IMG/VR virus record: IMGVR_UViG_3300042887_000572
Location: 1-31,259 of that record
Length of the DNA: 31,259 nt
DNA from: a virus
Direction: 5' to 3' (one strand)
Part shown: piece after piece, positions 1-30,204 of the stretch
Layout of the letters: each line of letters begins with the position of its first letter
Position numbering within the stretch: position 1 is the first letter of the stretch
The notes under the pieces: generated by a model
The model's input: the letters and a program-made list of their open reading frames with translations, nothing else
Told to the model about the DNA's origin: nothing
Databases searched by the model: none
Program-made: the position numbers and the translations under genes

Positions 1-1
1 A

Positions 2-2319: not shown

Positions 2320-2340
2320 AACTAGTTTCACAAAACTTAG

Positions 2341-2700: not shown

Positions 2701-2709
2701 AATGATGGC

Positions 2710-2752: not shown

Positions 2753-2793
2753 ATTGTATTAACTACAAAATCTGTTGTTACAAGTCTCGTCCA

Positions 2794-2810
2794 CTTGTAT
2801 TGGATACAAG
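2794..2810 (-). other. Short perfect hairpin in the early-operon 3' region
   Basis: CTTGTAT (2794-2800) and ATACAAG (2804-2810) form a perfect 7-bp stem with a 3-base loop. Next to it, TCTCGTCCA (2785-2793) is exactly complementary to TGGACGAGA (2731-2739), which forms the loop and two flanking stem bases of the terminator hairpin. The 3' end of this transcript could therefore fold in two ways or form a kissing or pseudoknot contact. Confidence 0.5.
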
Positions 2811-2843
2811 CAACGTAGCATTGCGACAACTAATGTCAAGTAA

Positions 2844-3125: not shown

Positions 3126-3128
3126 AAA

Positions 3129-4097: not shown

Positions 4098-4138
4098 TAG
4101 TGTTGGTTAAGGTTAGTTCTGGGAGGAACCTAGGAGGA

Positions 4139-5807: not shown

Positions 5808-5931
5808 TGGAAAGGTTGGGTTCGATGCCTTGATCCATGTCACGCATAGCGCAACGATGAATGAATGCTTCGTGCCTTGCTTCTTCTACTTCTCCCGATA
5901 CGTCTGTTTCGTCCCAGTCTCGTTCGCTCAT
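5791..5931 (-). CDS. Small acidic protein (46 aa)
   Basis: The ATG at 5931 overlaps the TGA of the upstream 72-aa gene (ATGA). The frame runs to a TAA inside the start of the exonuclease gene. The product, MSERDWDETDVSGEVEEARH..., is strongly acidic, with a single short helix predicted and no recognised domain. The overlaps on both sides explain an otherwise empty 120-base gap in a tightly packed operon, so I consider it real. Confidence 0.6.
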   Translation of the reverse strand: MSERDWDETDVSGEVEEARHEAFIHRCAMRDMDQGIEPNLSNDDNE

Positions 5932-6146
5932 TTGAGGCACTGGGTCAGCAGTTCGGCTACGCCGCGAAGGTGATCTCCCTGACTAACTACTGCCTTTGCA
6001 TTCGGGAGCTTGCCGAGGTCGAACTTTCCGTCCGCCGCTGATGCTGAAATCAAACGGAGATAAATCTCACGCTTGAGTGCTGAATCTACTGTTGGTTTCA
6101 CTTCTGGTTTCACTTCTGTTTCTTGTGTTGTTGGTTTATCTTTCAT
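5928..6146 (-). CDS. Hypothetical protein, first gene of early operon (72 aa)
   Basis: I start this at the ATG at 6146 and not at the upstream GTG at 6179. The GTG would lie at or next to the predicted transcription start, whereas the ATG has about a 33-base leader and the same ACTAATG context as other starts in the operon. The N-terminus (MKDKPTTQETEVKPEVKPTV) is low-complexity and charged. The C-terminal half (ALKREIYLRLISASAADGKFDLGKLPNAKAVVSQGDHLRGVAELLTQCLK) is helical. The family is not recognised. Confidence 0.6.
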   Translation of the reverse strand: MKDKPTTQETEVKPEVKPTVDSALKREIYLRLISASAADGKFDLGKLPNAKAVVSQGDHLRGVAELLTQCLK

Positions 6147-6186
6147 TAGTTTTTTGTGGACGGGTGTTGTGCCGCTCACAAGGGCA

Positions 6187-6214
6187 AATCTACAACAGGA
6201 AATTCTAGTGTCAA
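6187..6214 (-). promoter_or_regulatory. Sigma70-like promoter of the early leftward operon
   Basis: On the minus strand a perfect TTGACA (6209-6214) is followed after 16 bases by TAGATT (6187-6192). It lies between the late-operon terminator and the first early gene, which is where a promoter is needed. The 16-bp palindrome sits 17 bases upstream of the -35 box. Confidence 0.6.
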
Positions 6215-6231
6215 TAGATTATTTTCAGAAA

Positions 6232-6247
6232 TTATCGGTAACGATAA
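6232..6247. repeat. Dispersed palindrome copy 3 (early control region)
   Basis: TTATCGGTAACGATAA lies between the late terminator and the early promoter. It overlaps the end of the terminator T-tract by one base. This position suits an operator or activator site. Confidence 0.75.
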
Positions 6248-6283
6248 AAAAAGAAGCGCACCTCAGATTTCTCCAAGGTGCGC
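6247..6283 (-). terminator. Terminator of the late (virion) operon
   Basis: GCGCACCT (6256-6263) pairs perfectly with AGGTGCGC (6276-6283) around a 12-base loop. On the minus strand it is followed by TTC and then seven Ts. It lies about 75 bases past the stop of the giant virion gene. Confidence 0.9.
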
Positions 6284-6358
6284 CACTAATGAATGAACAC
6301 GAATGAAAACAGCAACAAGCTGTGGAACTAGATTACATCTGCGTTTTAAGATGTCAAT
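6284..6358 (-). other. Short intergenic stretch with a second TTGACA and two small stems
   Basis: The stretch has ACATCT/AGATGT (6335-6340 with 6349-6354) and an ACAGC/GCTGT hairpin near 6308-6323. A TTGACA at 6352-6357 on the minus strand lies 16 bases from TAATCT. If that is a promoter, it would make a short RNA of roughly 70-80 bases ending at the 6247-6283 terminator. The support is weak. Confidence 0.3.
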
Positions 6359-12300: not shown

Positions 12301-13177
12301 CTGCCATCTCTGGAGCGTACTGACCAAGAGCAGTGATAGTCTCTGTGCCTACTTCAGTTCCAGCACCACCGACAACTGCCGCAGATTTCTCCGCTATCTT
12401 ACGAGCTAATGTTTTCTCTACAGCTTGGGCAGACTCCCTAGCAAGTTGAGTGGCTGCTTGCTTTCCGAAACCGAATACAAACTTACCTACTCCAAGTGAC
12501 ACGGCATTACCTACCGCTTCTGGCCCAGCTTCCCACAATGCGCTTTCTTGTGATAGTGGAAGAAGAACTTTGTACGCTTCTGCTTTTTCCTCATCAGTAA
12601 GGGAAGTGCCTTTGTTCTCTTCAAGTTGCTTGAATGCTCGATACAAGTAGTCTGCACCCTGCATTCTGTATGAAACTACTCCAGAGGCAAGTCCAGCACC
12701 AGCAGCACCTCCCAATGGCCCAGCAGCGGCAGTTCCAGCGATTCCAGCAGGAATAGCAGCAGCCAGAGGAACTGCACTTGCAGACAGGGATGGTAACGCT
12801 TCTCTCAATGCTCCACTCATCATGCCTAGCTCCCCACTAGCTTTGCGATCTTCTAGTTCTTTTTGAATCTGCGCTTGGAATGCTAGATCAGCTTCAATGG
12901 CTTCACTCTTTTTAGGCATCGCAGTACCAGATACTAACTTCTGATATTGGGCTGGGATTCCAGTTGCTAATGCTTCTGGTATCCTTCCAATCACACCAAT
13001 GGCATCTTCCAAGTCCATTGCGGTGCTTTGCAAGAAGTCACCAGCCTTATCCATCGTGTTCGTAGCACCTTCTATTTTGGGAAGTGGAGCATTAAATTCT
13101 TCTTCACTTACTTCAATGAAATCCTTTCCTCCCCCAAGATATTCCTCTTCGGTGATTTCGATGAATTCTTTAGCCAT
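6359..13177 (-). CDS. Giant internal virion / DNA-ejection protein (2272 aa)
   Basis: This is the largest gene in the window and the last of the late operon. Position, size and composition match the large ejection protein of podoviruses (T7 gp16 position), though it is far longer than T7 gp16. It starts with a duplicated decapeptide, EFIEITEEEY (4-13) and DFIEVSEEEF (19-28). An alanine/glycine-rich hydrophobic stretch follows (about 126-170), then proline/alanine/glutamine-rich linkers (about 440-650), long helical regions, and hydrophobic segments near the C-terminus (IFQRIFFGFPLIVARVANVAYG and LVGTAVLLPLFFL). These could insert in the host envelope during ejection. I see no lysozyme or transglycosylase motif. 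It starts 3 bases after the stop of the upstream gene. Three palindrome copies (one imperfect) lie inside it. Large polyvalent-type phage proteins are an alternative class. Confidence 0.8.
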   Translation of the reverse strand: MAKEFIEITEEEYLGGGKDFIEVSEEEFNAPLPKIEGATNTMDKAGDFLQSTAMDLEDAIGVIGRIPEALATGIPAQYQKLVSGTAMPKKSEAIEADLAFQAQIQKELEDRKASGELGMMSGALREALPSLSASAVPLAAAIPAGIAGTAAAGPLGGAAGAGLASGVVSYRMQGADYLYRAFKQLEENKGTSLTDEEKAEAYKVLLPLSQESALWEAGPEAVGNAVSLGVGKFVFGFGKQAATQLARESAQAVEKTLARKIAEKSAAVVGGAGTEVGTETITALGQYAPEMAARQYAETGTTKGAPTEYPGGIMQAAKDVAPATLATQALFMGAGGAVKLAGLPFEAKPKTPVQIATDNIDLQANKEATNLAIDPTDEAGKGLSETINSIQSNLVNKKEVYSVLEATDPAAQTLKLEIQEDENRLILMQAELNKRAGVELTEAEKQQIELAKQIAAPEVVAVAQAATPAPVEQVVTPPVEVAPAPKTREQAVSELEKREAAKDRLQELTSAGEQIGEESQILDDILGIDPNSKESENLSNREKIARLTPEQRKEYGNRFSSLVSQRLTITPAPTIAEAALVEPITPTPVTEQAAPAEAPAPEVAPVRKYSIDSPEVKQAVEQTTSVQFLNRKLARVESEASTAEEAYNIAQSKLQQGDKRMANYQDYVRSEKGAKSVRDSARKEVEKVRLELSEERTRKAPFVRLELNSAAQEAAVAPSATPAVSKTITKPKLGEKGGVLIPTKEDFIQAGQNIYEAGMEFGAWAKQMIQQFGDAVREFLGEVWQSVSGAPAKLNELMGYLPGKGEAGALTIGDDGKLERYTDKGTIVGLAIRQEKDTPKGILSETIKIIKQRVFDGDSTPSESVTNKAWGLIERLQATNANSAENAEAINQLTRETMQEVDVAEDATEGERKVFESIKQTVGAAKLRNELFQYAIKLAGQGDNSMLNHLLNNDLNLVGTSVKTASDLGRFLGSLQGLKSYIIQANEAEQAGFIELAAQRFFDTTTPTQDQIDKVKSILTAVAETKVNEEEVILDELTQVGEKIGTELVENINTQIDKATKPEIKDPLVAAMLALQKLFGGTIETKYVSLIESANKIKQGVKNILQGGLTNYRSKLIEGAANGLETGFWKTLSNQENKPGPLGELDNAQNRELGSIVKNALISLGLQGTPPNTKMSIYEQVASILGEKPLSQDKTKSADEKIRQEIERKRQSDLESTEDEDAKDAINLKYDKIELAWDEAMSRQLDMPVGDTMLRRLIFNELKEGKTNLAGLAELMNNDPTVGTSRQNMIVSAIIKKIAGVTFEGQNPADYSLFREYLSNNLESMVREKQMEKKVVKVKEKVEANQAEREIDKLARIQSDTPNFPTSEKIANPVRDAVRNALKLVLNPMFDPKAATEIMNNWKKSFAAELQALGVDESTALTLTDIVGRQIELDSISKNLQTITNAVEKGALNNVIDAIKNTPLAEQQKPNWRYGVMFDYLRNAGLTKEQAERIAKLMDISLQKRFAKAQEEAAAAIAKRVLKGIKPESNQGFVALIQAIRAQVLNPGSNVAKEFGKSLGWKGFTSDQLKALNEFDSKINDETITDAERAVALEGIKKIIDKVALPQRVRDSLSAFYIGQALGRFTTATVQVIDPIIFSAWDAAVASARNVTSPSQVMQIWGNYISSLINAGREFAFSFKNDITRSGRLVDYLETQDRKLKRLNNDANNLWKNGQYKQAIKKYLFGYPEITSRVLKALDDASFSLLQQNALNQYMISAMNMARIPKKDQLGALRMIAQARQMDIANMMADGVSKNDAIIYANERMKAEISRVMSGLNLNSAEIVDSAINDSLSRIGKTRFKEQFSGEVELKDEGTLSYPFLKIYELTSQAIAGVKGTKGEVMRIFQRIFFGFPLIVARVANVAYGYTPISLYRHIFKGNYPLTYGTAIQQRKRLVEQLVGTAVLLPLFFLRSMSFDDDEEKPVRIVFTGFGPVKSKDPETYNQWNKKHNPGSLELFIGDKRYVIDSKAAGPLKPMIEILGAIDDWQVRSYQDKVKIKKSDLTNAQENAGLLSTLSQIAGSFALTAARRGPATGLMQGLIDFRRYPDDPIAAIAQEASFSLMPFVPVVGYGATKNFSDFLSDPIDTRTKEGAILNNIPIVGPMFGKPAINAFGQPLGDVQISEKIKKSIGIPVTVVSVGTEDEQKLTKITLKNGDGPQPLNRAEFDKKLGSPLTDEEWRTATETYARENRKTVLTDYKFLNDIDPETYRKAISTISASSKNEALFTIEKQRKK
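10636..10651. repeat. Dispersed palindrome copy 4 (in giant virion gene)
   Basis: TTATCGTTTCCGATAA has perfect arms. On the minus strand it encodes L-S-E-T-I. Confidence 0.8.
10993..11008. repeat. Dispersed palindrome copy 5 (imperfect)
   Basis: TTATCGTTTTCGATAC differs from the arm consensus at the last base only. It lies in the giant virion gene and is read as V-S-K-T-I-T. Confidence 0.5.
12016..12031. repeat. Dispersed palindrome copy 6 (in giant virion gene)
   Basis: TTATCGTTTCCGATAA is identical to the copy at 10636. It again encodes L-S-E-T-I, in a different part of the protein. Confidence 0.8.
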
Positions 13178-13179
13178 GA

Positions 13180-14622
13180 TTATTTAACGTAAACCTTTTG
13201 GCTTTGTTTATTCAAGTAATATCTTCCTTTTGCATCAGAAAGAACTTCAACTTTTATTTTGCCAGAAGTAGGTTGTGCTGCTGCTTCTGGCTTAGATTCT
13301 TGTTTCTTTATAGATGATCTGTTAATAACTGCTTTCGCACCCATTGTTTGCATGGCAGCAGTTTTTGTTTTTAATGTGTTAAGGTCTTTTGCTTCGTCTT
13401 TTGTTATCTCAATTGGAGGAAGATTTGATCCACGAATAGATGCTTGTATTACTTCTTGCATTCCTAAACTGTAATTACCAGTACTCCTTCTTTCCTCCAC
13501 TGTTGGAGGTCGCTTTACTGGTTGATATTGAATGGAGGCTACACCACCAGCTTCTTTAAGTAGATTACGCAATCTTGGGTTGGAGTCTACACTCACGGCT
13601 GCATCTCTAAAAGCATCGAACCATTCAGCAGATTTATTAGACTCATCTCCCAACTTATCTTCTTTACCAATTGTTGTACTAATTGATTTACCAATAGTCA
13701 CTCCCTTTTTAGCCCATTGAGAGAACTTTTCTGGAAGAATAAATCCAGTTACTCCGGGAAGAACAGATTGTAAAGATGGATCAGCAGGGACAAATTTTTG
13801 TCCTTTAGGAAGTTTGCTTACATGAGTAGTTAAATCTTTTTCATTACCAAATGATATAGATGTAGCTTCATCTTGTACATTTTGTTGATCTAATGGCATG
13901 GATGACCAGTCTTCAAATTTCTTTTGGAAACGCATCTCAAGTGGGCTTGGTTGATCTTGTGGTTTCTCTTGTTTAAATGCGAGGGGTGTTGCTACTTCTT
14001 GTTCTGGTAGAGGAACTTCAACTGCTGTTTTAAGATCACCTTGTGCAGCTAATTGATCTTCTTGAGCTTGCATTGACTGTTGCTGTGCAGTTCCTTGGTA
14101 TGGAGTCAATGTTGGCTGCTGTATTCTTTGCTGCTGTATTCTTTGCTGGTTTGCCAATATTGATTGACGAATTGGAAGCCCTCTAGCTCCAGCCGACATT
14201 GATTCGGCTACGCCTTGGTCAACCATTCCTTCTCCTGTTGTGTCAGGCGTTATTCCATTTTCTGCATTTAATCCAGATATAATATCATCTGCGGTGACTT
14301 GAGCTTCACCGCTACCACCATACCTAGACTTCATTACATTAATCTGCTGACTCTTAAAGTAATCATCAGAAGCAAACTGACCAGCCTTGAATGCCATCTG
14401 GCTAATGTTCTGGATCATTGGATTGTTAGGGTTCTCCATAGCTACTGCCATGATCTTGCTGAACCCTGCTCCGCTTCTGCCAGCATCAAAGTCTGTCATA
14501 GCAGATTGGAATGCTTGCTGTATTCCGGGCAGTGCATTATTGAATTGAGTTTGTTGGACATTCCTTTCAATCCCACCAGCAATCATTGCACCTAAATTAG
14601 CTAATTGATCTGATACTTCCAT
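13180..14622 (-). CDS. Internal virion protein, gp15-like position (480 aa)
   Basis: This lies between the small Gly/Ala-rich core protein and the giant ejection protein, which is the slot of the middle ejection-core protein in T7-like phages. The N-terminus (SDQLANLGAMIAGGIERNVQQTQFNNALPGIQQAFQSAMTDFDAGRSGAGF) is helical and glutamine-rich, typical of this class. A glutamine-rich segment follows (about 150-195) that includes a tandem QQRIQ QQRIQ. The C-terminus holds a short predicted beta segment (GKIKVEVLSDAKGRYYLNKQSQKVYVK). No enzymatic motif was seen. The role as an internal or ejection protein is inferred from gene order and composition. Confidence 0.65.
   Translation of the reverse strand: MEVSDQLANLGAMIAGGIERNVQQTQFNNALPGIQQAFQSAMTDFDAGRSGAGFSKIMAVAMENPNNPMIQNISQMAFKAGQFASDDYFKSQQINVMKSRYGGSGEAQVTADDIISGLNAENGITPDTTGEGMVDQGVAESMSAGARGLPIRQSILANQQRIQQQRIQQPTLTPYQGTAQQQSMQAQEDQLAAQGDLKTAVEVPLPEQEVATPLAFKQEKPQDQPSPLEMRFQKKFEDWSSMPLDQQNVQDEATSISFGNEKDLTTHVSKLPKGQKFVPADPSLQSVLPGVTGFILPEKFSQWAKKGVTIGKSISTTIGKEDKLGDESNKSAEWFDAFRDAAVSVDSNPRLRNLLKEAGGVASIQYQPVKRPPTVEERRSTGNYSLGMQEVIQASIRGSNLPPIEITKDEAKDLNTLKTKTAAMQTMGAKAVINRSSIKKQESKPEAAAQPTSGKIKVEVLSDAKGRYYLNKQSQKVYVK
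14115..14144. repeat. 15-bp tandem duplication
   Basis: The unit GCTGCTGTATTCTTT occurs twice head to tail. On the minus strand it encodes repeated QQRIQ in the glutamine-rich part of the 480-aa protein. It is probably a recent slippage duplication. Confidence 0.85.
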
Positions 14623-14646
14623 GATATTATAGTCCGTAAATTGATG

Positions 14647-15459
14647 TTAACGCACTCCGTAAAGTGATTGTAGGAGCGATGAATAAGATGGTACTGCTGC
14701 TCCAGCAGCCAATCCACTTCCAACTCTTCCAGCACCAATGTTAAATAGTGTTCCAGCAACCCCAGACCCCATTGTTCCTGCGGCTCCTGCTGTAGCTGCT
14801 GTTCCTGCTGTTCCAAGACCCAATGCCGCCGCTCCTGATGCTAGTCCACCAAATAATGCTGGCGCAAGAACTGGTGCTGCTGCGATTGTTGCTAATCCTG
14901 TTACAGCACCCATAATATTCTTTTGTTGGGTAGCTACTGCCTTTTGGTATGTAGCTTCATCTTGAGCCGCCGCCGCTGATTTAGATTCACCATATCTTTG
15001 TGATGGCCCAGCAAATTGAGCGGCCTCAAATGGATCATAAGCAAATGCGTCAGCGAGTTGTTGCCATCCTGCGGCGGTACTAATACCTTTCTCTTGGAGT
15101 TGCTGAGATTGTAACCCAAATTGTCTTGGAACCATACCCTGCGCCATCTGGAATCCACCAACCCTACCCGCCGTTGCTGGATTAAATCCTGCTCCACCAT
15201 ACTCTGCAATGCTTCGCATGGTTTGTTCTTGTACATCTTTAGGGAGTTCTCCGCGCATCCATGCTGCTGTAATGTCACTGGCTTGCTGGCGTTGGGCGGT
15301 AGCCCCCGGCATGACTCTCTCAATCTCTGCTAACCTAGCTGCGGTAGCTTTGTTTGCCGCTTGTTCATATTGAGGTAAATCTTGAAGCAATGCAACTCCG
15401 GGACGCTCTACAAATTGTGCTGTGTCTTGCTTCTTGGGTTTACTAAACATTCCTCCCAT
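14647..15459 (-). CDS. Internal virion protein, gp14-like (270 aa)
   Basis: The protein starts MGGMFSKPKKQDTAQF. It has a helical, glutamine-rich middle (ARLAEIERVMPGATAQRQQ, FQMAQGMVPRQFGLQSQQLQ) and a glycine/alanine-rich hydrophobic segment (about 184-240, MGAVTGLATIAAAPVLAPALFGGLASGAAALGLGTAG). This combination is characteristic of small podoviral core proteins that insert in the outer membrane during ejection (T7 gp14). It is followed directly by the two larger core-protein genes. No sequence-level match to gp14 itself is claimed. Confidence 0.65.
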   Translation of the reverse strand: MGGMFSKPKKQDTAQFVERPGVALLQDLPQYEQAANKATAARLAEIERVMPGATAQRQQASDITAAWMRGELPKDVQEQTMRSIAEYGGAGFNPATAGRVGGFQMAQGMVPRQFGLQSQQLQEKGISTAAGWQQLADAFAYDPFEAAQFAGPSQRYGESKSAAAAQDEATYQKAVATQQKNIMGAVTGLATIAAAPVLAPALFGGLASGAAALGLGTAGTAATAGAAGTMGSGVAGTLFNIGAGRVGSGLAAGAAVPSYSSLLQSLYGVR

Positions 15460-15461
15460 AA

Positions 15462-15812
15462 TTATAACCCTACCTTTCTTGCTAGTTTATCCCAGTTATA
15501 GGAATGCAGTTTGTTAATTCCATCTCTACACCAGAGAACCCATTCACGTTTAGTTGGAAGTACACGCATGACCTCTTTAATCGGAGTCATCTTATCGGAA
15601 CTTGCGGCAAGCTCGATAAACCATGCGTTAGGGTGTAGTGTAAACATATCCAAATCTTTTTCTTCAGTATTATAGTGAACTTCTGTTGCTAGAATAAATA
15701 GTTTCTTTGTTATAAAAACAAGCCCAAATTCTTTGTGCCAGTCGATTCTTTCTTGTAAAGATTCATCTCCATATTGTAATTGCCATTTGTTTGCGATCTC
15801 ATATGCAGTCAT
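15462..15812 (-). CDS. Conserved-type phage protein between adaptor and core genes (116 aa)
   Basis: The ATG overlaps the stop of the adaptor-like gene (TAATG), so translation is probably coupled. It contains TAYEIANKWQLQYG at the N-terminus and LHPNAWFIELAASSDKMTPIKEVMRVLPTKREWVLWCRDGINKLHSY in the C-terminal half. Small proteins with a PNAWFI...LPxKxxWVxWxR pattern occur beside core-protein genes of environmental podoviruses. The slot is that of T7 gp13 (internal virion protein A). I cannot assign a fold with confidence. Confidence 0.6.
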   Translation of the reverse strand: MTAYEIANKWQLQYGDESLQERIDWHKEFGLVFITKKLFILATEVHYNTEEKDLDMFTLHPNAWFIELAASSDKMTPIKEVMRVLPTKREWVLWCRDGINKLHSYNWDKLARKVGL

Positions 15813-16774
15813 TACCGATATAGAAAGTAATCGTTAGCTGATGGTGATAGTAGGTCAGAACCGATTAGGTTTTCTGCTCTGCTATAGTTAGCAAATCGAA
15901 TCGGAGCGGCGGTTGGTATCTCCACGCCGCTCATTTCCTTCTCTTGCTCTTTGATAGCAAGGTCTAGGTTCATCAAGAACTCTTGAGCTTTCCTATTGTC
16001 TCTGGAGTTCAGAGCAAGGATAGCGTAGATCATTGAGTCTGGGATGAACTCAACTAATTCTTTAGGATCAGTTAAGTCAAAATACCTTTTGGATGCGTAC
16101 AATGTTATACTATCACATCTCTTTGGAGTTCTGAATCTTCGGAACGATGGGTTAATATCGCTTGGGTGATAGAGAGATATTAGCGTTTTGGTATTTAGAA
16201 TTGTATCGTAGGCGTATACCCTAATCCTTCCATTAGTAACAGGCTTAGATACTGATCTAACAGCACGGAATTGCTGGGATGTCTTAGCTAACTCACCGCG
16301 ATTTAATGCAGTTATTTTAGCTAGATGGTAAGTTCCATATTCATCTTGCGCTTCAAATGCTAACTCAACGCCAGCATCATCGTCCGATTCAACCATGATA
16401 CCAATCTGATAGGTATTGATCTCGTAGTCATTGAACAAGACGTGTAGTCCGCCAGCTTCTACGATACCTCTATGGCAAGATTGATTAGGCTGTAGGGCAA
16501 ATGCGTTTGTTGCATTGAACCATTCGTCAGCAAGTGACATTGATTCATTACCCATCCACGCCAGTTTGATTTGCTCGTACCTATTTGGAAGCGTGAAGCA
16601 TCCGTCTATGCAGCAAATTTGAACGTACTCTTCTTGAGTCGTCCAAGCGCGTTTATTCCATAGCAAGCGTCTGGCCTGATTGATTGCCTTGAAAGCTCTC
16701 TCATCAGAACACACGCCACTATCTCCGACAAAACCCTTAACGAGTTCTGCCATCTCTTTGAGGGTATCACCCAT
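15812..16774 (-). CDS. Putative head-tail adaptor / tail tubular A-like protein (320 aa)
   Basis: The protein begins with a helical segment (LKEMAELVKGFVGDSGVCSDERAFKAINQARRLLWNKRAW) of the kind seen at the N-terminus of podoviral adaptor proteins. A long beta-rich region follows, then a final helical part (ELVEFIPDSMIYAILALNSRDNRKAQEFLMNLDLAIKEQEKEM). That last part resembles the C-terminal helix region of tail tubular or ring proteins. Its place next to the nozzle-like gene supports a tail-hub role. Its start codon shares a base with the 16-bp palindrome, and no Shine-Dalgarno sequence can be present there. The distance to the upstream stop is exactly the palindrome. Confidence 0.55.
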   Translation of the reverse strand: MGDTLKEMAELVKGFVGDSGVCSDERAFKAINQARRLLWNKRAWTTQEEYVQICCIDGCFTLPNRYEQIKLAWMGNESMSLADEWFNATNAFALQPNQSCHRGIVEAGGLHVLFNDYEINTYQIGIMVESDDDAGVELAFEAQDEYGTYHLAKITALNRGELAKTSQQFRAVRSVSKPVTNGRIRVYAYDTILNTKTLISLYHPSDINPSFRRFRTPKRCDSITLYASKRYFDLTDPKELVEFIPDSMIYAILALNSRDNRKAQEFLMNLDLAIKEQEKEMSGVEIPTAAPIRFANYSRAENLIGSDLLSPSANDYFLYR

Positions 16775-16789
16775 TATCGTTAACGATAA
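16774..16789. repeat. Dispersed palindrome copy 7, filling an intergenic gap
   Basis: TTATCGTTAACGATAA is perfectly palindromic over all 16 bases. It begins immediately after the TAA of the 52-aa gene, and its last A is the A of the next ATG, so it is the whole spacer. Confidence 0.85.
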
Positions 16790-16948
16790 TTACTTTTGGT
16801 AGCCTTGTTTTGGAGTGCCAGCAGTCGTGTAGATGCTAGGCTTTTTGGCTCCAAGGTTTGGCATATTGCCCATTCCTTCGCCGATCTTGCCGCGAGTTGG
16901 TGAGCCGCCAGAGACGAGCTTTGGGTCAGTTCCTTTTAGTGGTGTCAT
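16790..16948 (-). CDS. Small Gly/Pro/Lys-rich protein (52 aa)
   Basis: This short gene fills the gap between the fibre-like 168-aa gene and the adaptor gene. It encodes MTPLKGTDPKLVSGGSPTRG...KKPSIYTTAGTPKQGYQK, a basic, probably unstructured peptide rich in glycine, proline and lysine. Its stop codon abuts the palindrome. It could be a minor virion or scaffold-like peptide. There is no family match. Confidence 0.55.
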   Translation of the reverse strand: MTPLKGTDPKLVSGGSPTRGKIGEGMGNMPNLGAKKPSIYTTAGTPKQGYQK

Positions 16949-16975
16949 AGTATTGGTTTTCTTTATGGCTATTAC

Positions 16976-17482
16976 TTACGAAGTGTGAACCGCCATCCAG
17001 TCTACACTTGTTATTTCCGCAATGTTATTCTCAATGCGGATTGAAAATCCTGTTGTTGTTTTGCTCCCACCATTCAATGAGAATAATGGTGTAGCTTGAA
17101 CTCCAATTGTAGCAGATGCTATTGGAGTAATTGATACTCCATATGTTGAAGATGGTAATGCAGTAAATGTTACGGTTCTAACTGAGTCACCAGTTGTTAC
17201 TGCTGTTATCGTTCCAGACCTTACTGTGACTACTGGGTTTGCCTCAAGTGCTGTCACTTGAGTTTGCAACGCATCAATCTCGTTCTGTTGGTTTGCAAGT
17301 TCTAAATTAATAGCAGCAATCTCTTCTGGCGTTACGTCACCAAGGCCGGGGATATTGATTGTTCCATTAGAAAGAACAGTATCAATAAACTGCTGAAGGA
17401 TTTCTGACCAATTCCCAGATGGACAAAAGTCGATTGGGACATTTGGGAAAATAATTGCAGGTGATGAATCTTGATTGTCCAA
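16976..17482 (-). CDS. Short fibre or tail-associated protein with coiled coil (168 aa)
   Basis: Translation probably starts at a TTG (17480-17482), since an AAGGAT lies at the right distance upstream and no ATG is near. Residues about 45-80 (INIPGLGDVTPEEIAAINLELANQQNEIDALQTQVTALEAN) form a heptad coiled coil for trimerisation. The rest is a beta-rich C-terminal domain (VRSGTITAVTTGDSVRTVTFTALPSSTYGVSITP...) that ends SVDWMAVHTS. This N-terminal IIFPNVPxxFCPSxxW / LSNGTINIPGLGDVTPE pattern is familiar from fibre-like proteins of environmental phages. It lies next to the nozzle gene and is probably a tail spike or fibre adaptor. Confidence 0.65.
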   Translation of the reverse strand: MDNQDSSPAIIFPNVPIDFCPSGNWSEILQQFIDTVLSNGTINIPGLGDVTPEEIAAINLELANQQNEIDALQTQVTALEANPVVTVRSGTITAVTTGDSVRTVTFTALPSSTYGVSITPIASATIGVQATPLFSLNGGSKTTTGFSIRIENNIAEITSVDWMAVHTS

Positions 17483-17486
17483 AATA

Positions 17487-19337
17487 TTATCCTTCGTTTA
17501 TTGAGTAGTCGTAATACCGTTCTGGGCAGCAGTTAATGTCTGGACACTCTTGATCGTTTTCTGGGCAGTCACCAATCGGAGAGTCTTCCAAATTCTTAAT
17601 GTTTGCCATTATCCTTACTCTGTCTACTGTTGCCGCTCCTGTCAAGGAAATCTTTAGTTGGAACTCACTTCCTTCTATTGTTGGAATATCTGAAATAGAG
17701 TTACATTCAGATGGGTCGGGTGAGTTAAACTTGTAGCGTTTGTATGTATCACCACTACGTCTTGGGTAACATTCGTTCGTTACTACTGGAGAACATGGGT
17801 TACATCCATAGGTTGTTGGGACTTTAAGTTCACTCCAGCATGGATAAGAGTCTGGTCTAAATTCTGCCCGGCTAGTCACTTCTCCTTTGATTTCAGACAA
17901 CCACATCTCGCCACCAGTGATTCTTTTCCTCAAGAACTTATTCGATGCCCCGCTTTGCGCGAAGTCATACCTTCCTGATGTGAAGAAGGATTCGATTGCC
18001 ACAGTCCCATTTACTCCGTAGTCATCAGTGTTACTTGTTGTGATTTCGTAGAGTCGATTCTTATTGTCTGTATCGAACGAGAATCCGAATCCACGCTTCT
18101 CATTTAAAATATAGGCAGAGAGTAGCTGAGTTGGTCTAAAGCCCGTCCAGAGGCCATTCCAGCGAAATGTAAGCTGTGCGTCAGGTGAGGGGGAAGATGA
18201 TTGATCTAGGTCTAGTACAACCATTCCTCTGTGGTATCTATTTAGTCCCTCTACTCCCGTTGCGCGGAAGGTTTGTGGTGCTACTGTACTGATCAGATAG
18301 TTATTGAAAAACATAGTTGAAGCGAATTGCTTCAGCCAAGGAGTATCATTTGATACCCATTTATTTACTTCCCTCGAAAGTTTACGAAGCGAAAAGTATC
18401 TGGCAAATTCTGATTGGCTATTGGAATAGAATGCCCAGCCATCATGTGATCTAAACCAAAGTTCAGAGTTGGCTAGTGCCAAGTATGGTGATGTGCATCC
18501 CCGTCCAAGCAAACTGATCGTCTGCATTTGAGATGTTGCCCACTGCGCCCTTGGTAGGCTAACGTCCATAGCGAATGCACCATTTGAAGTTAGTACAACT
18601 AGCATCCCTTGGGCGCGGAGGTTACTTCCAATCTGTGGCATTACTTTCATGCCAGTAATATTTCCCATCATTGCTGGGGTAGCAAACGCGCCACCCTCTG
18701 CCCAGTATCCGATCTCTGTGAAGTTCTCGGTATTCGTTGTATCAGTGAATCCTGCTCCGAAGATGATGTCAGATGCATAGATTTGATTGAACTTGTCAGC
18801 TACGAAGACACGCCCGAAAGCGTACTCCATGATAGTCCCAATCGGCATCTTCTTGAGGTATGGGTTCAGCCTATACGCTGCTACGTTCAAGTCTCCTCCC
18901 CACGCTATAGCATTCTGGTATCCATTCTGGATGTAAACGCGATCCTCGGCTTGCACGAACCATGTGTGCATCATGCCGGGGTCATTGCCTTCGATTAGCT
19001 TGTAGGCATACGCCGTGTTGCCTATGATCTTTAGGAAGTAAATCTTCCCGCTTACTGATAGAAGAAGACCATCTGTGCTTTGGTAGTTTACCGCCCTATA
19101 TGCAAATGAACCTTGGAAGTTACCATTCTGAATATCGTTAACGATAGTCGATGGTTGGTCAGTGCCAGCTACGATATTGATATTGCGGATGCTTGGTCTT
19201 GTCCTGTTTATTCCGCCTCGGAATGTCCGATTAACAGACTCAGCTACCATTGATGGAGGCAAGTATGATGGATGAGTATCTGCGTCTTGCGCTATGATAC
19301 TTGTGAATCCATCAAAGACTGATCCATCTGCTGCCAT
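17487..19337 (-). CDS. Tail nozzle / tail tubular B-like structural protein (616 aa)
   Basis: The protein is long and beta-rich, with repeated blade-like segments (GSFAYRAVNYQSTDGLLLSVSGKIYFLKI, MMHTWFVQAEDRVYIQNG, MEYAFGRVFVADKFNQIYASDI, ELWFRSHDGWAFYS, GMVVLDLD). This is as expected for the beta-propeller nozzle of podovirus tails (T7 gp12 position). The C-terminal 120 residues are rich in cysteine (YGCNPCSP, NECYPRR, CPENDQECPDINCCPERYYDY), which is unusual for this class and suggests metal binding or disulfide stabilisation. It overlaps the upstream 134-aa gene by one base (TAATG). It contains a near-perfect palindrome copy at 19133-19146. Confidence 0.65.
   Translation of the reverse strand: MAADGSVFDGFTSIIAQDADTHPSYLPPSMVAESVNRTFRGGINRTRPSIRNINIVAGTDQPSTIVNDIQNGNFQGSFAYRAVNYQSTDGLLLSVSGKIYFLKIIGNTAYAYKLIEGNDPGMMHTWFVQAEDRVYIQNGYQNAIAWGGDLNVAAYRLNPYLKKMPIGTIMEYAFGRVFVADKFNQIYASDIIFGAGFTDTTNTENFTEIGYWAEGGAFATPAMMGNITGMKVMPQIGSNLRAQGMLVVLTSNGAFAMDVSLPRAQWATSQMQTISLLGRGCTSPYLALANSELWFRSHDGWAFYSNSQSEFARYFSLRKLSREVNKWVSNDTPWLKQFASTMFFNNYLISTVAPQTFRATGVEGLNRYHRGMVVLDLDQSSSPSPDAQLTFRWNGLWTGFRPTQLLSAYILNEKRGFGFSFDTDNKNRLYEITTSNTDDYGVNGTVAIESFFTSGRYDFAQSGASNKFLRKRITGGEMWLSEIKGEVTSRAEFRPDSYPCWSELKVPTTYGCNPCSPVVTNECYPRRSGDTYKRYKFNSPDPSECNSISDIPTIEGSEFQLKISLTGAATVDRVRIMANIKNLEDSPIGDCPENDQECPDINCCPERYYDYSINEG
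19133..19146. repeat. Dispersed palindrome copy 8 (in nozzle gene)
   Basis: TATCGTTAACGATA is perfectly palindromic over 14 bases and lacks only the outermost pair of the 16-mer. It is read as T-I-V-N-D-I. Confidence 0.65.
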
Positions 19338-19741
19338 TAGTTAAGAATGTCAGGCCAAGTGGCTTTAATTCCTGCTAAATCATCTGGAAGCGGAGTCAAA
19401 GTAACGTCACGCAACGCTTGCTTCGCAGCAACGATTTCAGCCTTCTTTGCTTCGTCGTTACCCTCAACTGCCTTCATAAAGTCGATGTCGAGCTTTTGCA
19501 GCTTCGGTGAACGAGCAGAACGAAACTTATCAAGATGAATAGCTTTCGCCTTTTCAATGTTTACCTTTGCGCCAAGTTCAGCGTCAAATTCGTATGCGTT
19601 GAAGTAATCGTTATCAATGTCAACTGATTCAACAATCTTGTATTCTACTCCTTCTGGAACATCTTTGATTGCGTCATTAACGTCTCCGCATGGGATGACT
19701 ACTGCTACTTGTCCGTTTGGTTGTGAATAGGTGATAAACAT
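19337..19741 (-). CDS. Tail-fibre-associated / assembly protein (134 aa)
   Basis: I use the ATG at 19741 (MFITYSQPNGQVAVVIP), 4 bases after the stop of the upstream fibre gene. The longer frame would run into that gene. The pattern YKIVESVDIDNDYFNAYEFDAELGAKVNIEKAKAIHLDKFRSARSPKLQKLDIDFMKAVEGND...IVAAKQALRD...PDDLAGIKATWP is widely found in phage genes next to tail fibres. It resembles tail-fibre assembly or chaperone-type proteins in which (D..FxxAWE)...K...R.aR...L..LD are conserved. It probably helps fold or attach the fibres encoded upstream. Confidence 0.65.
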   Translation of the reverse strand: MFITYSQPNGQVAVVIPCGDVNDAIKDVPEGVEYKIVESVDIDNDYFNAYEFDAELGAKVNIEKAKAIHLDKFRSARSPKLQKLDIDFMKAVEGNDEAKKAEIVAAKQALRDVTLTPLPDDLAGIKATWPDILN

Positions 19742-19745
19742 AAAA

Positions 19746-20225
19746 TTAGTTTCCGAAGATTTGAGCGCAAACTGCTGCAACGTCTTGAACATCATACGCA
19801 TGATATGAATATGAACTTTTTATTCTTACGCTGCCGGTATTAAAAGTTTTTACGCTAATAAAACCTAAATTTTCAAAAGAATCTTGAATTGGTTGTGAAG
19901 TTGCAGAAACACTATAATTTGCATCAGCCATAGCAGTTGCAAAATTAATAGTGTAATCACCAGTTCCATTCTTCGTAACGCTTGAGACGTTAAAACTTCT
20001 ACCAGCAGAGCTTGGTGTAGTCCCATTGAAATTCACCCATGCTTTGGCAACATTTGCTCCACTAATTGATGTCGCAGGGATTGTGATATTTCCAGTTCCA
20101 TCGAATGAAACTCCGTTGATCGTCCGTGCTGTGGTTAGTTTAAGTGCTGATGGAACTCCATTCGCACTCGTCAGCGAAGTGGTATCGTTAAAAGTAATTC
20201 CAGATGATGTGATTTGTGTTGGCAT
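19746..20225 (-). CDS. Tail-fibre protein, C-terminal adhesin domain (159 aa)
   Basis: The N-terminus (MPTQITSSGITFNDTTSLTSANGVPSALKLTTARTINGVSFDGTGNITIPA) is a typical beta-helical fibre lead. The following domain (AKAWVNFNGTTPSSAGRSFNVSSVTKNGTGDYTINFATAMADANYSVSATS...) is a C-terminal receptor-binding module common in phage fibres, ending in VCAQIFGN. The domain is clearly paralogous to the one in the neighbouring upstream gene at 20227-20739. The two genes probably arose by duplication and offer alternative or combined receptor binding. Confidence 0.75.
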   Translation of the reverse strand: MPTQITSSGITFNDTTSLTSANGVPSALKLTTARTINGVSFDGTGNITIPATSISGANVAKAWVNFNGTTPSSAGRSFNVSSVTKNGTGDYTINFATAMADANYSVSATSQPIQDSFENLGFISVKTFNTGSVRIKSSYSYHAYDVQDVAAVCAQIFGN

Positions 20226-20916: not shown

Positions 20917-21750
20917 TTATAACTCCGATGAAAATGCCATCCATGCTGTAGATATATTAGATAATAATATACTACATCTTCCCAATGTTAACCCACCAGA
21001 TGAAGCGGAACATGATATTCCTAATTGATTTCCATCTGTAGGAGAAGCACCTAAACTTATTGATGTCAACACAGAAGTAATTGATGTTCCATCATAAATT
21101 ATAAAATCACTTAAATTACTTTGAGTTATTGTTGGAATAGACCTCATTGTTACAGGTGGAGTTATTGATCCTCTAGAATTTGTTGTTTGTGCAACAAGCA
21201 AATTAAAATAATATGTATCACTTGGGGAAGTATTTGATTTTCTCCAATAATACCTCTGACACAATGCCAACTCCGTTCCGATTGGACGATTCTCAAACGG
21301 AGTTGCTACTGATCCTGCTTCAAGTTGGACTTGTGATACTGTTCCGCTTGAGAATTTAATTGTAGCGTTGGTATTGGCAGTAAGTGTGACTTGACCACCA
21401 TTGGATACTGCTGATCCATTTACCGCACCAGTTGCAGTTCCAGTCCATGAAAGTGTATATGTGCCACCTTCTATGTTTAGGGATTCAATAACTTGTTCAA
21501 TCCCGCCAGCAGGTGCAGTAACGATATTTCCAATTCCGCTTGCAGAAAATGTAAGATTCTGACCAGATGTAACTACACGCCAACGATCAACAGTATATTG
21601 ATTTGCTCCACTCGTCGCAGTTCCAGAAACATATACGCGTTGGTTGATACCAAAATTACCATTGATAATTTTATTTCTAAATGACAACGCAGTTCCGTTG
21701 ACCAATGCTGGTGTCGTAATTCCTGTTGTTCCGTCTATTGTTACTGGCAT
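20917..21750 (-). CDS. Tail-fibre protein (277 aa)
   Basis: The protein shows the signature of a widespread phage fibre family: FRNKIINGNFGINQRVYVSGTATSGANQYTVDRWRV at residues about 24-59, a carbohydrate-binding-like beta-sandwich region, then VSQVQLEAGSVATPFENRPIGTELALCQRYYWR (about 138-170), and a C-terminal variable domain. A clear Shine-Dalgarno (AAAGGAGAT) precedes the ATG, one of the few strong ones in this operon, so this product may be made at a high level. It probably forms a receptor-binding fibre. Confidence 0.85.
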   Translation of the reverse strand: MPVTIDGTTGITTPALVNGTALSFRNKIINGNFGINQRVYVSGTATSGANQYTVDRWRVVTSGQNLTFSASGIGNIVTAPAGGIEQVIESLNIEGGTYTLSWTGTATGAVNGSAVSNGGQVTLTANTNATIKFSSGTVSQVQLEAGSVATPFENRPIGTELALCQRYYWRKSNTSPSDTYYFNLLVAQTTNSRGSITPPVTMRSIPTITQSNLSDFIIYDGTSITSVLTSISLGASPTDGNQLGISCSASSGGLTLGRCSILLSNISTAWMAFSSEL

Positions 21751-22376: not shown

Positions 22377-23735
<1,359 letters not shown>

Positions 23736-24834: not shown

Positions 24835-26538
<1,704 letters not shown>

Positions 26539-26569: not shown

Positions 26570-26785
26570 TCAAGCAGTTATGTCAGGGCCAACAGGCCAA
26601 GATAAGCCTTCTTTCACAATCTGCTCTTCGCATTCTTCGTGTGTTCCAACAAATAATGTTTGTGGCGTGGCAATTGATTGGTCTGTTTGTTCGTAGAAAA
26701 TAATGGTTTTCTCTTCATATGCCAATTTCCATTTTCCAACAGAATCGTCATATGACCAGCCATTTGCGCTTGGAGTAATGATCAT
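26570..26785 (-). CDS. Small protein coupled to the PATR protein (71 aa)
   Basis: I use the ATG at 26785 because it overlaps the upstream TGA (ATGA). The longer frame to 26872 would lie inside the upstream gene. The product, MIITPSANGWSYDDSVGKWKLAYEEKTIIFYEQTDQSIATPQTLFVGTHEECEEQIVKEGLSWPV, resembles small fibre-region proteins that end in an F(V/G)ThEECEEqI element. It is probably a fibre-accessory protein, and no further function can be given. Confidence 0.6.
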   Translation of the reverse strand: MIITPSANGWSYDDSVGKWKLAYEEKTIIFYEQTDQSIATPQTLFVGTHEECEEQIVKEGLSWPVGPDITA

Positions 26786-27654
26786 GGGACAGTAACTGAC
26801 AGGGTTGAGGTTGCCGAGGCATAGGTTGCTGTTGTTCCAACAGGGACGCCCGTAAGGGTTCCTATTGTCCAAGTTCCTGCTGTCGAACCTTGGAAAAAAC
26901 GGAATGTTGTAACTCCAGAAGGAGGTGAAACATTGAACGAGACGCTTAATACTGTAGTGGTTCCGTTGTTGTTAAATGTTCCAGTAGCGGTTGATGCTCC
27001 AGTTGTTTTGAACGCTCGCAAATTGCCCGCAGTGATCGTTGTCGATCCTGTGTAGGTTAATGCCCCAGACAGAACAACAGTTCCATTGCCCGTTTTGTTT
27101 ACATTGCCCGCTCCCGAAATGTTTCCAGAAATTGTGTATGTTTGTGCGCCAGCTGTGCGGTATTGCATTGTTCCGCTACTTAGGATGAAATTGTTTGGAA
27201 CGGTTACGGTTGCGGAAGTGATGATTTGGCACGGGCCGGAACAGGTCACATTCCCCGTCCCAAAAACATTCCCTGACGAGAATGTTATCGTTGCCGCCGC
27301 CGCGCTTGAACTATAATTAGTTCCACCAGAATAAGTATTATTGCCGCCAATGGTTAGTGCCAATGATCCGCTCTTTGCGAGCGTCCCCGCTCCGCTAATA
27401 ACTCCGTTGAGCGTTGATGCGCCTGTAACTTCAAGCGTTCCAGAGTTGATTTGCGTTTGCCCCGTGTAGTTGCAAGTGCCAGATAGAGTTAATTTACCAG
27501 CCCCGTTCTTAATTAGCCCTATTGCGCCAGTAATCGCTTGCGAAATCGTCGTCGCGGCGTAACACATGAATTGGCGAAACGCCGCAGTTGCAGACGCAAT
27601 TGCAGTTACATTGGTTCCACCTACTTTAGCTGCGCTGGAATTAGTTAAAATCAT
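26782..27654 (-). CDS. Fibre/adhesin protein with autotransporter-associated beta-strand repeats (290 aa)
   Basis: Three copies of the PATR-type repeat are visible: IKNGAGKLTLSGTCNYTGQTQINSGTLEVTGA (48-79), LAKSGSLALTIGGNNTYSGGTNY (92-114) and VNKTGNGTVVLSGALTYTGSTTITAGNLRAF (185-215). Each has the form (L/V)xKxGxGxLxLSGxxxYxGxTxIxxGxLxxx. Such repeats form beta-helices and are frequent in very large exported surface proteins of Verrucomicrobia and Planctomycetes. Here there is no signal peptide or autotransporter barrel, so the repeat is used as part of a phage fibre or spike. The C-terminus is a small beta domain. It lies between other fibre genes in the late operon. It was possibly acquired from the host. 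Confidence 0.75.
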   Translation of the reverse strand: MILTNSSAAKVGGTNVTAIASATAAFRQFMCYAATTISQAITGAIGLIKNGAGKLTLSGTCNYTGQTQINSGTLEVTGASTLNGVISGAGTLAKSGSLALTIGGNNTYSGGTNYSSSAAAATITFSSGNVFGTGNVTCSGPCQIITSATVTVPNNFILSSGTMQYRTAGAQTYTISGNISGAGNVNKTGNGTVVLSGALTYTGSTTITAGNLRAFKTTGASTATGTFNNNGTTTVLSVSFNVSPPSGVTTFRFFQGSTAGTWTIGTLTGVPVGTTATYASATSTLSVTVP

Positions 27655-27685
27655 GCGATATTAATAAAATATTTGTTGATATACA

Positions 27686-28003
27686 TTAGATTTCTTCTTC
27701 GGGTTGCGGGATGAGGGCAACAGCGTCAGTCATGGGGAGGATTTGCACTTGCGGGAAGATGTCGGGTGGGAGATGTGCGAATCCTTGCGCGTAGAGTCCG
27801 CCGGGGCCAGTCTCGGTGAGCAAGTCGGCGCAGAGCATGAGTCGGCCATCGGTGAGCGGCACGGGCGCGGCAACATGATGCGGATTTCCGTATTGCTCTT
27901 GAATCGCTCCTAGCGTAGCAGCTTGGTCGGGAGTGAGAACGATAGCGAGATCGAGGGCGGACTCGTAGCTGACGGGTTGCTGGATAAGGTCTGCGAGTGT
28001 CAT
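27686..28003 (-). CDS. Hypothetical protein in higher-GC segment (105 aa)
   Basis: The product starts TLADLIQQPVSYESALDLAIVLTPDQAATLGAIQEQYGNPHHVAAPVPLTDGRLMLCADLLTETGPGGLYAQGFAHL and ends in a proline/glutamate tail. The ATG overlaps the stop of the lectin-like gene by 4 bases. Its DNA is visibly richer in G and C than that of its neighbours, which suggests recent transfer. No known domain was recognised. The position suggests a fibre-accessory or chaperone role. Confidence 0.6.
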   Translation of the reverse strand: MTLADLIQQPVSYESALDLAIVLTPDQAATLGAIQEQYGNPHHVAAPVPLTDGRLMLCADLLTETGPGGLYAQGFAHLPPDIFPQVQILPMTDAVALIPQPEEEI

Positions 28004-28788
28004 GGTATTGCGGCGGCTAGTGCGGTCATGAGGGTGGACACGCGTGTGTTGAGGAGGGCGAGGTTGAGAGATTCCCCTATGCTGTAAAAAGCAAGACGGC
28101 CATTTGAGCGGCTAGCAATTGCGCCATTGGAATTTATTCCAAAAACAAAAATGTTGCCGTTATATGTTCCTGTTGGTACGTTTGTACTGGTTCCAGTCGC
28201 GCCAGCCCATCTGTAGTTAAAGCTATTGCTTGCCGTCCTTGAAATGCCAGCAAGTCCTGTTCCAGCCCTGTTTGAATTTAAGATATTACCTCCACTTCGG
28301 ATGCCAAGTCCCACATTTGTTGAGATCCCGGTTATGACAAGTGGAGTTGGCGTTGTTTTAATCGCGCCCATATAATAAATATTTATAGCTGTCGCGGGCG
28401 TTGATACCCATATAGCTACGCTGGCATTATTTTGGGGATCTGCATCAGCGGCGCGATTGCTATTGAGATATTTAGTCGTGGAATTTCCTACCAAACCAGT
28501 TTTGCGGTTGTAGTCTCCCGAAACAAAATTGATGGATGTTGGGGCTGCACCTACGAGCGGCACTAATGCGCCAGACAGAGTTCGCGCCCCCGCGAGAATA
28601 CATGAGCTTTTGATTGCGCTCCAGATGCCATCCGATTTGCATCCTCCCACAAAATTGTTGATTGCGGTTTTGACGGCAGACTCCAACGATTGTCCATCAG
28701 CAGTTTCTATCGCGGATATATAAGCTGTAGCGTCAGCATCTTCTAAAAAATCTGTCAACGCAAACCGATATGGATTGATGAGAAACAT
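28000..28788 (-). CDS. Lectin-like tail protein (262 aa)
   Basis: It begins FLINPYRFAL and contains AYISAIETADGQSLESAVKTAINNFVGGCKSDGIWSAIKSSCILAGARTLSGALVPLVGAAPTSINFVSGDYNRKTGLVGNSTTKYLNSN. This is a pattern I know from many environmental phages, where it leads into a concanavalin/LamG-like sandwich. The remainder (ASVAIWVSTPATAINIYYMGAI...GNIFVFGINSNGAIASRSNGRLAFYSIGESLNLALLNTRVSTLMTALAA) fits a lectin fold ending in helix. It probably binds a surface glycan. The start overlaps the preceding stop (TAATG). Confidence 0.75.
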   Translation of the reverse strand: MFLINPYRFALTDFLEDADATAYISAIETADGQSLESAVKTAINNFVGGCKSDGIWSAIKSSCILAGARTLSGALVPLVGAAPTSINFVSGDYNRKTGLVGNSTTKYLNSNRAADADPQNNASVAIWVSTPATAINIYYMGAIKTTPTPLVITGISTNVGLGIRSGGNILNSNRAGTGLAGISRTASNSFNYRWAGATGTSTNVPTGTYNGNIFVFGINSNGAIASRSNGRLAFYSIGESLNLALLNTRVSTLMTALAAAIP

Positions 28789-29471
28789 TAGCGGGTTCCT
28801 ATGAGCCAGACTTTGAGACCTTTTCCTGCTGTTGTGCTTCCAATTTGGTCTACATCAATTGTAATTTCAGCATCGTCGGCTAATGCAGAATTGCTAATTA
28901 CAGTTGGGGTTGCTGCCGTTGTTGATGTTTTTTCAGAAGCATCAATCGAAAGTTTGGTAGAAAGAATAGATGTGCCACCTACGTTGATGTCAACAATAAT
29001 TGTTGATCCAACTGGAGCAGTATTAACATTAGCGCGAACAGATGTTAGAGTAATGCCGCACGGCATACGGAATGTTACTTTAGCAACACCAGTTGTAATC
29101 GAGGTTGTCTCGTCCGAGCAAGCAAGTCCAATCTCTATAGGAACGGGAGGTGCTACACTAATATCGGAAAGGGTAGCAATCGTACCAGAGGCACTAGGAA
29201 GCGTGAAAGTTTTTGTAGTACCTCCTGCCGTTATGGTGAGGTTACTATTGTTTTGCAGTTCTAGTAATTGACTGCTATCAGGAGAGTAAATTTCGTCGTG
29301 CGAATGCACAGACATACCACCAATTTCTTGGATTGCACCCGTAGATGGATGCTTGGCATAGAGTTTTTTATCTGCGTGATTTATGCAAATCTCACCAGAT
29401 GCAAGGTCTGCGTTTGCAGGAACCCGTGCAGCAATTGTGCTTTTTTTAGGGACTATGATTGGATTAGCCAT
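28788..29471 (-). CDS. Tail-fibre / receptor-binding protein (227 aa)
   Basis: The N-terminal region (ANPIIVPKKSTIAARVPANADLASGEICINHADKKLYAKHPSTGAIQEIG) is a shaft-attachment module of the form ...P...L..GE..IN..D.KLY.K...G.I, shared in outline with the upstream 223-aa fibre. The C-terminal part is a beta-sandwich (IEIGLACSDETTSITTGVAKVTFRMPCGITLTSVRANVNTAPVGSTIIVDINVGGTSILSTKLSIDASEKTS...ADDAEITIDVDQIGSTTAGKGLKVWLIGTR) that is very common in phage receptor-binding proteins. It is one of several parallel adhesins in this cluster. Confidence 0.8.
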   Translation of the reverse strand: MANPIIVPKKSTIAARVPANADLASGEICINHADKKLYAKHPSTGAIQEIGGMSVHSHDEIYSPDSSQLLELQNNSNLTITAGGTTKTFTLPSASGTIATLSDISVAPPVPIEIGLACSDETTSITTGVAKVTFRMPCGITLTSVRANVNTAPVGSTIIVDINVGGTSILSTKLSIDASEKTSTTAATPTVISNSALADDAEITIDVDQIGSTTAGKGLKVWLIGTR

Positions 29472-29532: not shown

Positions 29533-30204
29533 TTAGTAGGTTCCGCCGTCGATGGTTGTTTCGAGTGCAGTTACGCGAGTGTCGAGAGCCGAATCAGCCG
29601 ATGTACGGGCCGAAACTTCCGAAGCCAAAGCAGCGTTGTTGCTCGTTACATAACCAGCGAAAGCCGAGTCATTTGCCGTATCAACGCTGTTGATAAGGGA
29701 AACGATTTCAGCAAACGTGTCACTGTCTGCGCTTGCGGCAGAAAGGATTGCGTCGATGCGGTTTTTCTCAGTTGTGATTTTGCCGTCGAGGGCCGAATCA
29801 GCACTGGTGCGGTTGCTCGTCTCAGTGGAAAGATTACCAGCGATTACACCTTCAGCGGCGGTAGCGCGGGAAACCTCTGCTGAAACTGCCGATGTCAATG
29901 TGCTGTCAGCAGCAATGCGAGCAGACTCTTCAGCAGAAAGATTGCTGGTGAGGGTGCTGTCAGCACTGATACGAGCGGCTTCTTCTGCGGCGATAGCGGC
30001 AGTAAGAGTCGAGTTCGCGGCAGATACAGCGGCATCAGCATACGATTTGGTAGCGAATGTGCCTTCGCCGCCGACGATGAGTACTGATCCGTCAGCTTTA
30101 CCGACGAAGAGGTTTTTATTGGTTAGGTCGATTGCCAACTCTCCAGAAGAAAGGCTTGCTGGAGCGGAAGAACCGCGTTTGATACGAATGATTGGATTTG
30201 CCAT
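29533..30204 (-). CDS. Coiled-coil tail fibre with Mtd-like N-terminus (223 aa)
   Basis: The N-terminus (IIRIKRGSSAPASLSSGELAIDLTNKNLFVGKADGSVLIVGGEGTFATKSYADAAV) matches the attachment module of fibre proteins related to the N-terminal part of phage major tropism determinants. The rest is a regular series of (A/S)xEEsARIsADSTLTSn units and NRIDAILSAASADSDTFAEIVSLINSVDTANDSAFAGYV, typical of long trimeric coiled-coil shafts in short-tailed phages. It has an unusual A-rich leader (30205-30232) and no Shine-Dalgarno sequence. No diversity-generating retroelement is visible here. Confidence 0.8.
   Translation of the reverse strand: MANPIIRIKRGSSAPASLSSGELAIDLTNKNLFVGKADGSVLIVGGEGTFATKSYADAAVSAANSTLTAAIAAEEAARISADSTLTSNLSAEESARIAADSTLTSAVSAEVSRATAAEGVIAGNLSTETSNRTSADSALDGKITTEKNRIDAILSAASADSDTFAEIVSLINSVDTANDSAFAGYVTSNNAALASEVSARTSADSALDTRVTALETTIDGGTY

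Follow-up and report, generated by a model that had tools for sequence, protein, structure and literature searches.

A compact PATR beta-helix protein and its coupled partner gene: a probable exchangeable host-recognition cassette in phages

Introduction

Autotransporter-associated beta-strand (PATR) repeats usually reside in giant bacterial surface proteins. Passengers of the ShdA, IcsA and Hbp type, which carry these repeats (PF12951, TIGR02601), are mostly 1,000 to 5,500 aa long. Here we describe a phage protein that has the same repeat by HMM and that matches the beta-helix of these passengers, but that is only 290 aa long, lacks barrel and anchor and, judged by eye, has no signal peptide. 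Also unlike the bacterial passengers, it has terminal caps that we find in phages only, and it is coupled to a partner gene.

A second group of relevant proteins are the tailspikes P22 gp9, Dettilon gp208 and LKA1 gp49. These likewise form a right-handed beta-helix and are encoded in an adhesion cluster; their structures match the model of our protein with Z of about 8–10. In contrast to these tailspikes, the predicted helix here is made of PATR repeats, is shorter and contains no recognised enzymatic domain.

The third comparison concerns gene arrangement. In the Alteromonas phages A5 and V22, host-recognition modules consisting of a fibre (369–462 aa) and a chaperone (195–240 aa) are common to unrelated phages (PMC10579305). 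As in these modules, our putative fibre gene is followed by a small cognate gene, the two are exchanged between distant phages, and there are domain insertions. The likeness lies in gene arrangement and exchange; the partner here has 71 aa and belongs to no known family.

PATR-like phage proteins are already annotated in databases, and shared fibre-plus-chaperone modules are a known kind of system. The family phrog_15824 (“tail fiber protein proximal subunit”) is a partial and weak match to our protein (E = 1.9e-7), as is the BFVD entry A0A6J5M3L0 from an uncultured phage (“Autotransporter-associated beta strand repeat”; Foldseek E = 0.39, probability 0.95). Within the limited literature collection searched, no paper joins the PATR names with phages.

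We argue that the gene at 26782–27654 probably encodes an exchangeable phage receptor-binding protein, which together with its 71-aa partner would form a mobile host-recognition cassette. Such a protein would link phage adhesins to the passenger fold of bacterial autotransporters, and the compact pair (290 + 71 aa) is open to direct expression and binding tests.

A small PATR protein in a tail fibre cluster

The window, by which we mean the whole stretch of DNA analysed (31,259 nucleotides of the IMG/VR record IMGVR_UViG_3300042887_000572), contains a minus-strand run of fibre-like genes in which the PATR gene lies (Table 1). The gene starts with ATG, and its product of 290 aa contains three PATR repeats. 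Both profiles of the PATR repeat family exceed their curated cut-offs on this protein, each over three stretches. TIGR02601 reaches 61.1 bits (cut-off 19.85; hmmscan, E = 6e-17), and the Pfam model PF12951 reaches 56.4 bits (cut-off 27; E = 3e-15). The protein is a member of the repeat family by this measure. It lacks the C-terminal beta-barrel translocator of a type V autotransporter; residues 210–290 fall in the phage-specific cap. Pfam and NCBIfam scans of the protein returned neither an autotransporter barrel nor an anchor family, and inspection of the N-terminus by eye revealed no apparent signal peptide.

The gene is flanked on both sides by collagen-like fibres and PHROG tail families, which places it in a tail fibre gene cluster. 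Two collagen-like fibres near the PATR gene (24835–26538 and 22377–23735) match PHROG tail fibre families with E-values down to 7e-56. Homologues of the upstream genes 28788–29471 and 29533–30204 accompany the PATR pair in many contigs; the phrog_17104 protein adjoins it in three related loci only.

Table 1. Positions of the features discussed, in coordinates of the window
Feature	Position	Strand	Basis
PATR protein of 290 aa, predicted beta-helix, putative receptor-binding fibre or spike	26782..27654	-	TIGR02601, PF12951, AlphaFold2, at least 95 viral relatives
N-terminal cap, residues 1-40	27535..27654	-	kept across the phage family (alignment); N-cap HMM without match in the cellular ORFs checked
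PATR repeat 1, residues 46-77	27424..27519	-	best TIGR02601 stretch, model 1-32 of 32
PATR repeat 2, about residues 92-123	27286..27381	-	placed by inspection of the translation
PATR repeat 3, about residues 183-214	27013..27108	-	placed by inspection of the translation
C-terminal cap, residues 212-290, all-beta, phage-specific by HMM	26785..27021	-	AlphaFold2 strands 210-289; HMM without match in cellular ORFs
Partner protein, 71 aa, putative fibre chaperone or cap	26570..26785	-	ATG overlaps PATR stop (ATGA)
Collagen-like tail fibre with Phage_tail_C-like end, downstream	24835..26538	-	Collagen PF01391 4e-33; Phage_tail_C 9e-4, below cut-off; PHROG tail fibre
phrog_4492 tail fibre gene	20917-21750	-	PHROG
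phrog_17104 protein, upstream	28000..28788	-	phrog_17104 1.8e-82; tblastn matches in cyanophages only
Putative fibre or baseplate-associated adhesin, upstream	28788..29471	-	phrog tail matches; C-terminal half common to freshwater phages
Protein with weakly Mtd_N-like N-terminus, upstream	29533..30204	-	PF18454 3.5e-4, 20.9 bits, under the 26.3 cut-off
Palindrome TATCG-N4-CGATA	930, 4549, 6233, 10637, 10994, 12017, 16775, 19133, 23742, 30715		

The initial annotation of this DNA, made from the letters alone, had described three PATR repeats in a small protein without signal peptide or anchor, encoded in a phage fibre cluster. The profile searches and the neighbouring genes agree with this description, with the signal peptide judged by eye. 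Its proposal that the protein is an adhesin is also the best reading of our data, although we infer this role.

The same surroundings bear on whether the pair acts on the virion at all. One could imagine that it works in the infected cell instead, for example by masking receptors or by blocking superinfection. PATR proteins are normally found at the cell surface, and the partner has no known family in Pfam or PHROG, which would both suit such a function. Yet a signal peptide is not apparent on inspection, barrel and anchor are lacking, and the pair is not only located within the fibre cluster but also keeps company with it across lineages. We therefore give a role outside the virion very little credence, and a location on the virion appears more plausible.

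Predicted fold and architecture

We predicted the structure of the PATR protein with AlphaFold2 from a family alignment of 38 rows (mean column identity 72%). The resulting model (pLDDT 91.2, pTM 0.87) has right-handed beta-helix strands up to about residue 205, followed by an all-beta C-terminal part. Foldseek searches with the model against PDB and BFVD returned nothing at E ≤ 0.001, and the fold match depends on VIA-align, which served as a second look at Foldseek’s list. By this measure the Hbp passenger ranks first (Z = 13.4, 4.3 Å over 221 residues); pertactin reaches a Z of 11.6, IcsA 10.8 and the P22 tailspikes about 9.5. Hence, the right-handed beta-helix expected of a tailspike or receptor-binding protein is present at the level of prediction, by AlphaFold2 and VIA-align.

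The protein consists of three parts with different relatives. An HMM of the middle (residues 36–212) repeatedly matches giant cellular proteins, with a best domain E-value of 9.6e-25. HMMs of the N-terminal part (residues 1–40) and of the C-terminal part (residues 212–290) found nothing significant in the ORFs of 43 cellular loci, a limited cellular sample that was fetched by two peptide motifs. In viral ORFs, on the other hand, the two caps co-occur in 140 proteins. Judged by these profiles, the caps are phage-specific and the middle is of bacterial type, and the repeats may ultimately have come from bacteria.

Among 78 distinct proteins that extend from cap to cap, 63 measure 280–299 aa, and variants range from 147 to 542 aa. 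In one relative (L227) both caps are kept and the middle is not seen by the middle HMM, yet PATR-like stretches persist. The C-terminal cap also occurs elsewhere: two phage proteins of about 1,100 aa (L065:4974-8315 and L063:6685-10053) have the same cap at their end and an unrelated start, and the one in L065 immediately follows a PATR gene with its partner.

This architecture suggests a division of labour. The N-terminal cap would probably dock the protein to the tail or to a fibre, the PATR beta-helix, of the kind seen in autotransporter passengers, would display a variable surface, and the all-beta C-terminal cap would shut the end of the helix.

A coupled partner gene

The initial annotation did not include the 71-aa partner gene, which belongs with the PATR gene as one unit. 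The motif ATGAT is found at the PATR stop in 88 of 97 loci, and in 87 of 97 a partner homologue lies just downstream; its offset from the PATR gene is fixed in nearly all loci. Most of the remaining loci either break off at a contig edge or, like L063 and L065, have the partner at another PATR copy. There are two true exceptions: a different 146-aa gene occupies the same overlap in L138, and an 18-aa ORF is found in L075. The partner in L222 starts with GTG. Searching in the reverse direction, from the partner, we found that a PATR-family C-terminal cap precedes every homologue with sufficient upstream sequence. PATR protein and partner are a near-obligate pair across at least five terminase lineages.

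A small co-inherited gene immediately downstream is what one would expect of a fibre with a cognate chaperone. Homology of the partner to the known fibre chaperones Tfa, gp38 and IMC was not seen: 25 partner sequences yielded no significant family in Pfam or PHROG. Its structure prediction is poor (pLDDT 46). In analogy to fibre chaperones, the translationally coupled partner would most likely help the PATR protein to fold or to trimerise, or would cap its tip. Their reciprocal pairing recommends the 71-aa protein as a strong candidate for a new family of fibre-assembly or cap proteins.

Exchange between phages

In IMG/VR, the PATR protein has at least 95 relatives (two scans gave 78 and 95), most of which span residues 1–290 with identities of 55–83%. 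No relative was found when the PATR protein and the longest member of the family (542 aa) were compared with 50,697 isolate phage records by tblastn. The terminases of the contigs that carry the cassette fall into five groups, which share less than 28% identity, if they match each other detectably at all.

Several observations show that the gene is mosaic. The nearest relative of the window is the contig G027 (L129, L155, L156), and most of the window aligns to it with 87–93% DNA identity. The flanks are 88–92% identical to this contig. The alignment breaks off within the PATR gene, at position 27057, and the region from 27057 to 29185 is unaligned. Allele swaps are visible, for instance between L004 and L036, which are 100% identical in residues 1–35 and 50% identical in residues 93–150. 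According to segment identities, the PATR alleles diverge most in their middle segments. The PHI test on 540 informative sites gave z = -34, and none of 2,000 permutations was as low. The number of repeats also differs among family members. A tree of PATR units would not be meaningful, because the units are only about 32 aa long and the PHI test indicates strong recombination. In one contig of 60.5 kb (IMGVR_UViG_3300042938_000567), the PATR gene and its partner are present twice, as two different copies (L128, L136).

Could the protein simply be a structural part, a beta-helical rod that serves as spacer or decoration of a fibre or the capsid, while the neighbouring fibre proteins contact the receptor? 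Bacterial PATR repeats do form stalk-like passengers, and the variation in repeat number is reminiscent of a ruler. The annotation of the best PHROG match as a proximal subunit and the presence of other fibre candidates next to the PATR gene also fit a spacer. However, allele swapping and mosaicism between phages that are otherwise 88–92% identical are typical of receptor-binding parts, and it is the middle segments that diverge most. We consider a spacer unlikely for these reasons.

Receptor binding by the PATR protein itself thus remains the explanation that we prefer. Under this explanation, the PATR and partner cassette would recombine between alleles and move between phage lineages, and repeats would be gained and lost. 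A bolder version is possible, and we put it forward more tentatively: phages may have domesticated an autotransporter-type beta-helix as a self-contained, repeat-variable adhesin, with the partner as a new, unrelated chaperone or cap family and the pair as a plug-in host-range cassette of unrelated aquatic phages.

The host

The initial annotation had called the repeats Verrucomicrobia/Planctomycetes-type, had suggested that a host surface module was captured, and had taken the repeats as the best hint to the host phylum. Our results do not support the first and the last of these claims. The top cellular matches are giant proteins of Pseudomonas, Pantoea and Xanthomonas. PATR is widespread: cellular matches are also found in Verrucomicrobia, Planctomycetes, Chlamydiae and others, and in our E. 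coli and C. glutamicum controls. In addition, at least five terminase lineages that are unrelated to each other share the cassette, which therefore tracks recombination and not the host phylum. Assigning the host by PATR was ruled out because PATR is so widespread, and a PATR match in a phage contig should not serve to assign a PVC host. The idea of a captured module fares better for the middle (residues 36–212), which matches bacterial giants, than for the caps, which match none of the cellular ORFs checked.

One might still argue that the capture was recent and from the phage’s own Verrucomicrobia or Planctomycetes host, in which case PATR would mark that host. After all, PATR is abundant in those phyla (several Verrucomicrobia genomes have 129 matches or more), and the middle segment has homologues among cellular giants. 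We think this scenario is highly unlikely. The best cellular matches are from Gammaproteobacteria, the phage proteins (at least 95) form a family of their own with phage-only caps, and isolate homologues of the cluster genes occur in cyanophages and in phages of Proteobacteria. Furthermore, when 194 Verrucomicrobiota and 199 Planctomycetota genomes were searched for DNA matches or CRISPR spacers to positions 1–19900 of the window, nothing convincing emerged, although this is a weak test that is insensitive to spacers. The matches in these genomes are short and 80–90% identical, and three of five cover 14773–14814 in the gene at 14647–15459.

The neighbouring genes point, weakly, in another direction. 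Isolate homologues of the 28000–28788 protein, at 30–50% identity in tblastn, are found in Synechococcus phages only. The C-terminal half of the 28788–29471 protein occurs in phages of Synechococcus, Microcystis, Planktothrix, Sphingomonas, Rhodobacteraceae and Polaromonas, and the fibre at 20917–21750 matches 74 isolate records, 47 of which are Synechococcus. For the helicase, the exonuclease and two terminases from carrier contigs, the matches are distant and lie in isolate phages of mixed hosts. The 616-aa and 2272-aa proteins have no isolate-phage relatives. No photosystem gene (PF00124) was found in 32 carrier contigs; these are fragments, hence their lack of the gene is uninformative. 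The isolate homologues of the neighbouring genes weakly suggest Synechococcus and other freshwater hosts. If a single guess had to be made, cyanobacteria would be the most likely host.

Only 4 of 25 genes checked (window 691–30984) have a Shine-Dalgarno-like site upstream, a possible hint of a host with low SD use.

Other features of the window

The largest protein mentioned above, the 2272-aa ORF at 6359–13177, has no PHROG and no significant Pfam match. The window also contains 10 copies of a 14-bp palindrome, TATCG-N4-CGATA, often in the form TATCGTTAACGATA, which is possibly an operator or stoperator-like site. When up to two mismatches to TATCGTNAACGATA are allowed, there are 20 matches on both strands against 0.47 expected. 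Three copies lie 1–9 bases upstream of start codons, and the 12-base core of the palindrome is present in 47 of the 233 loci fetched.
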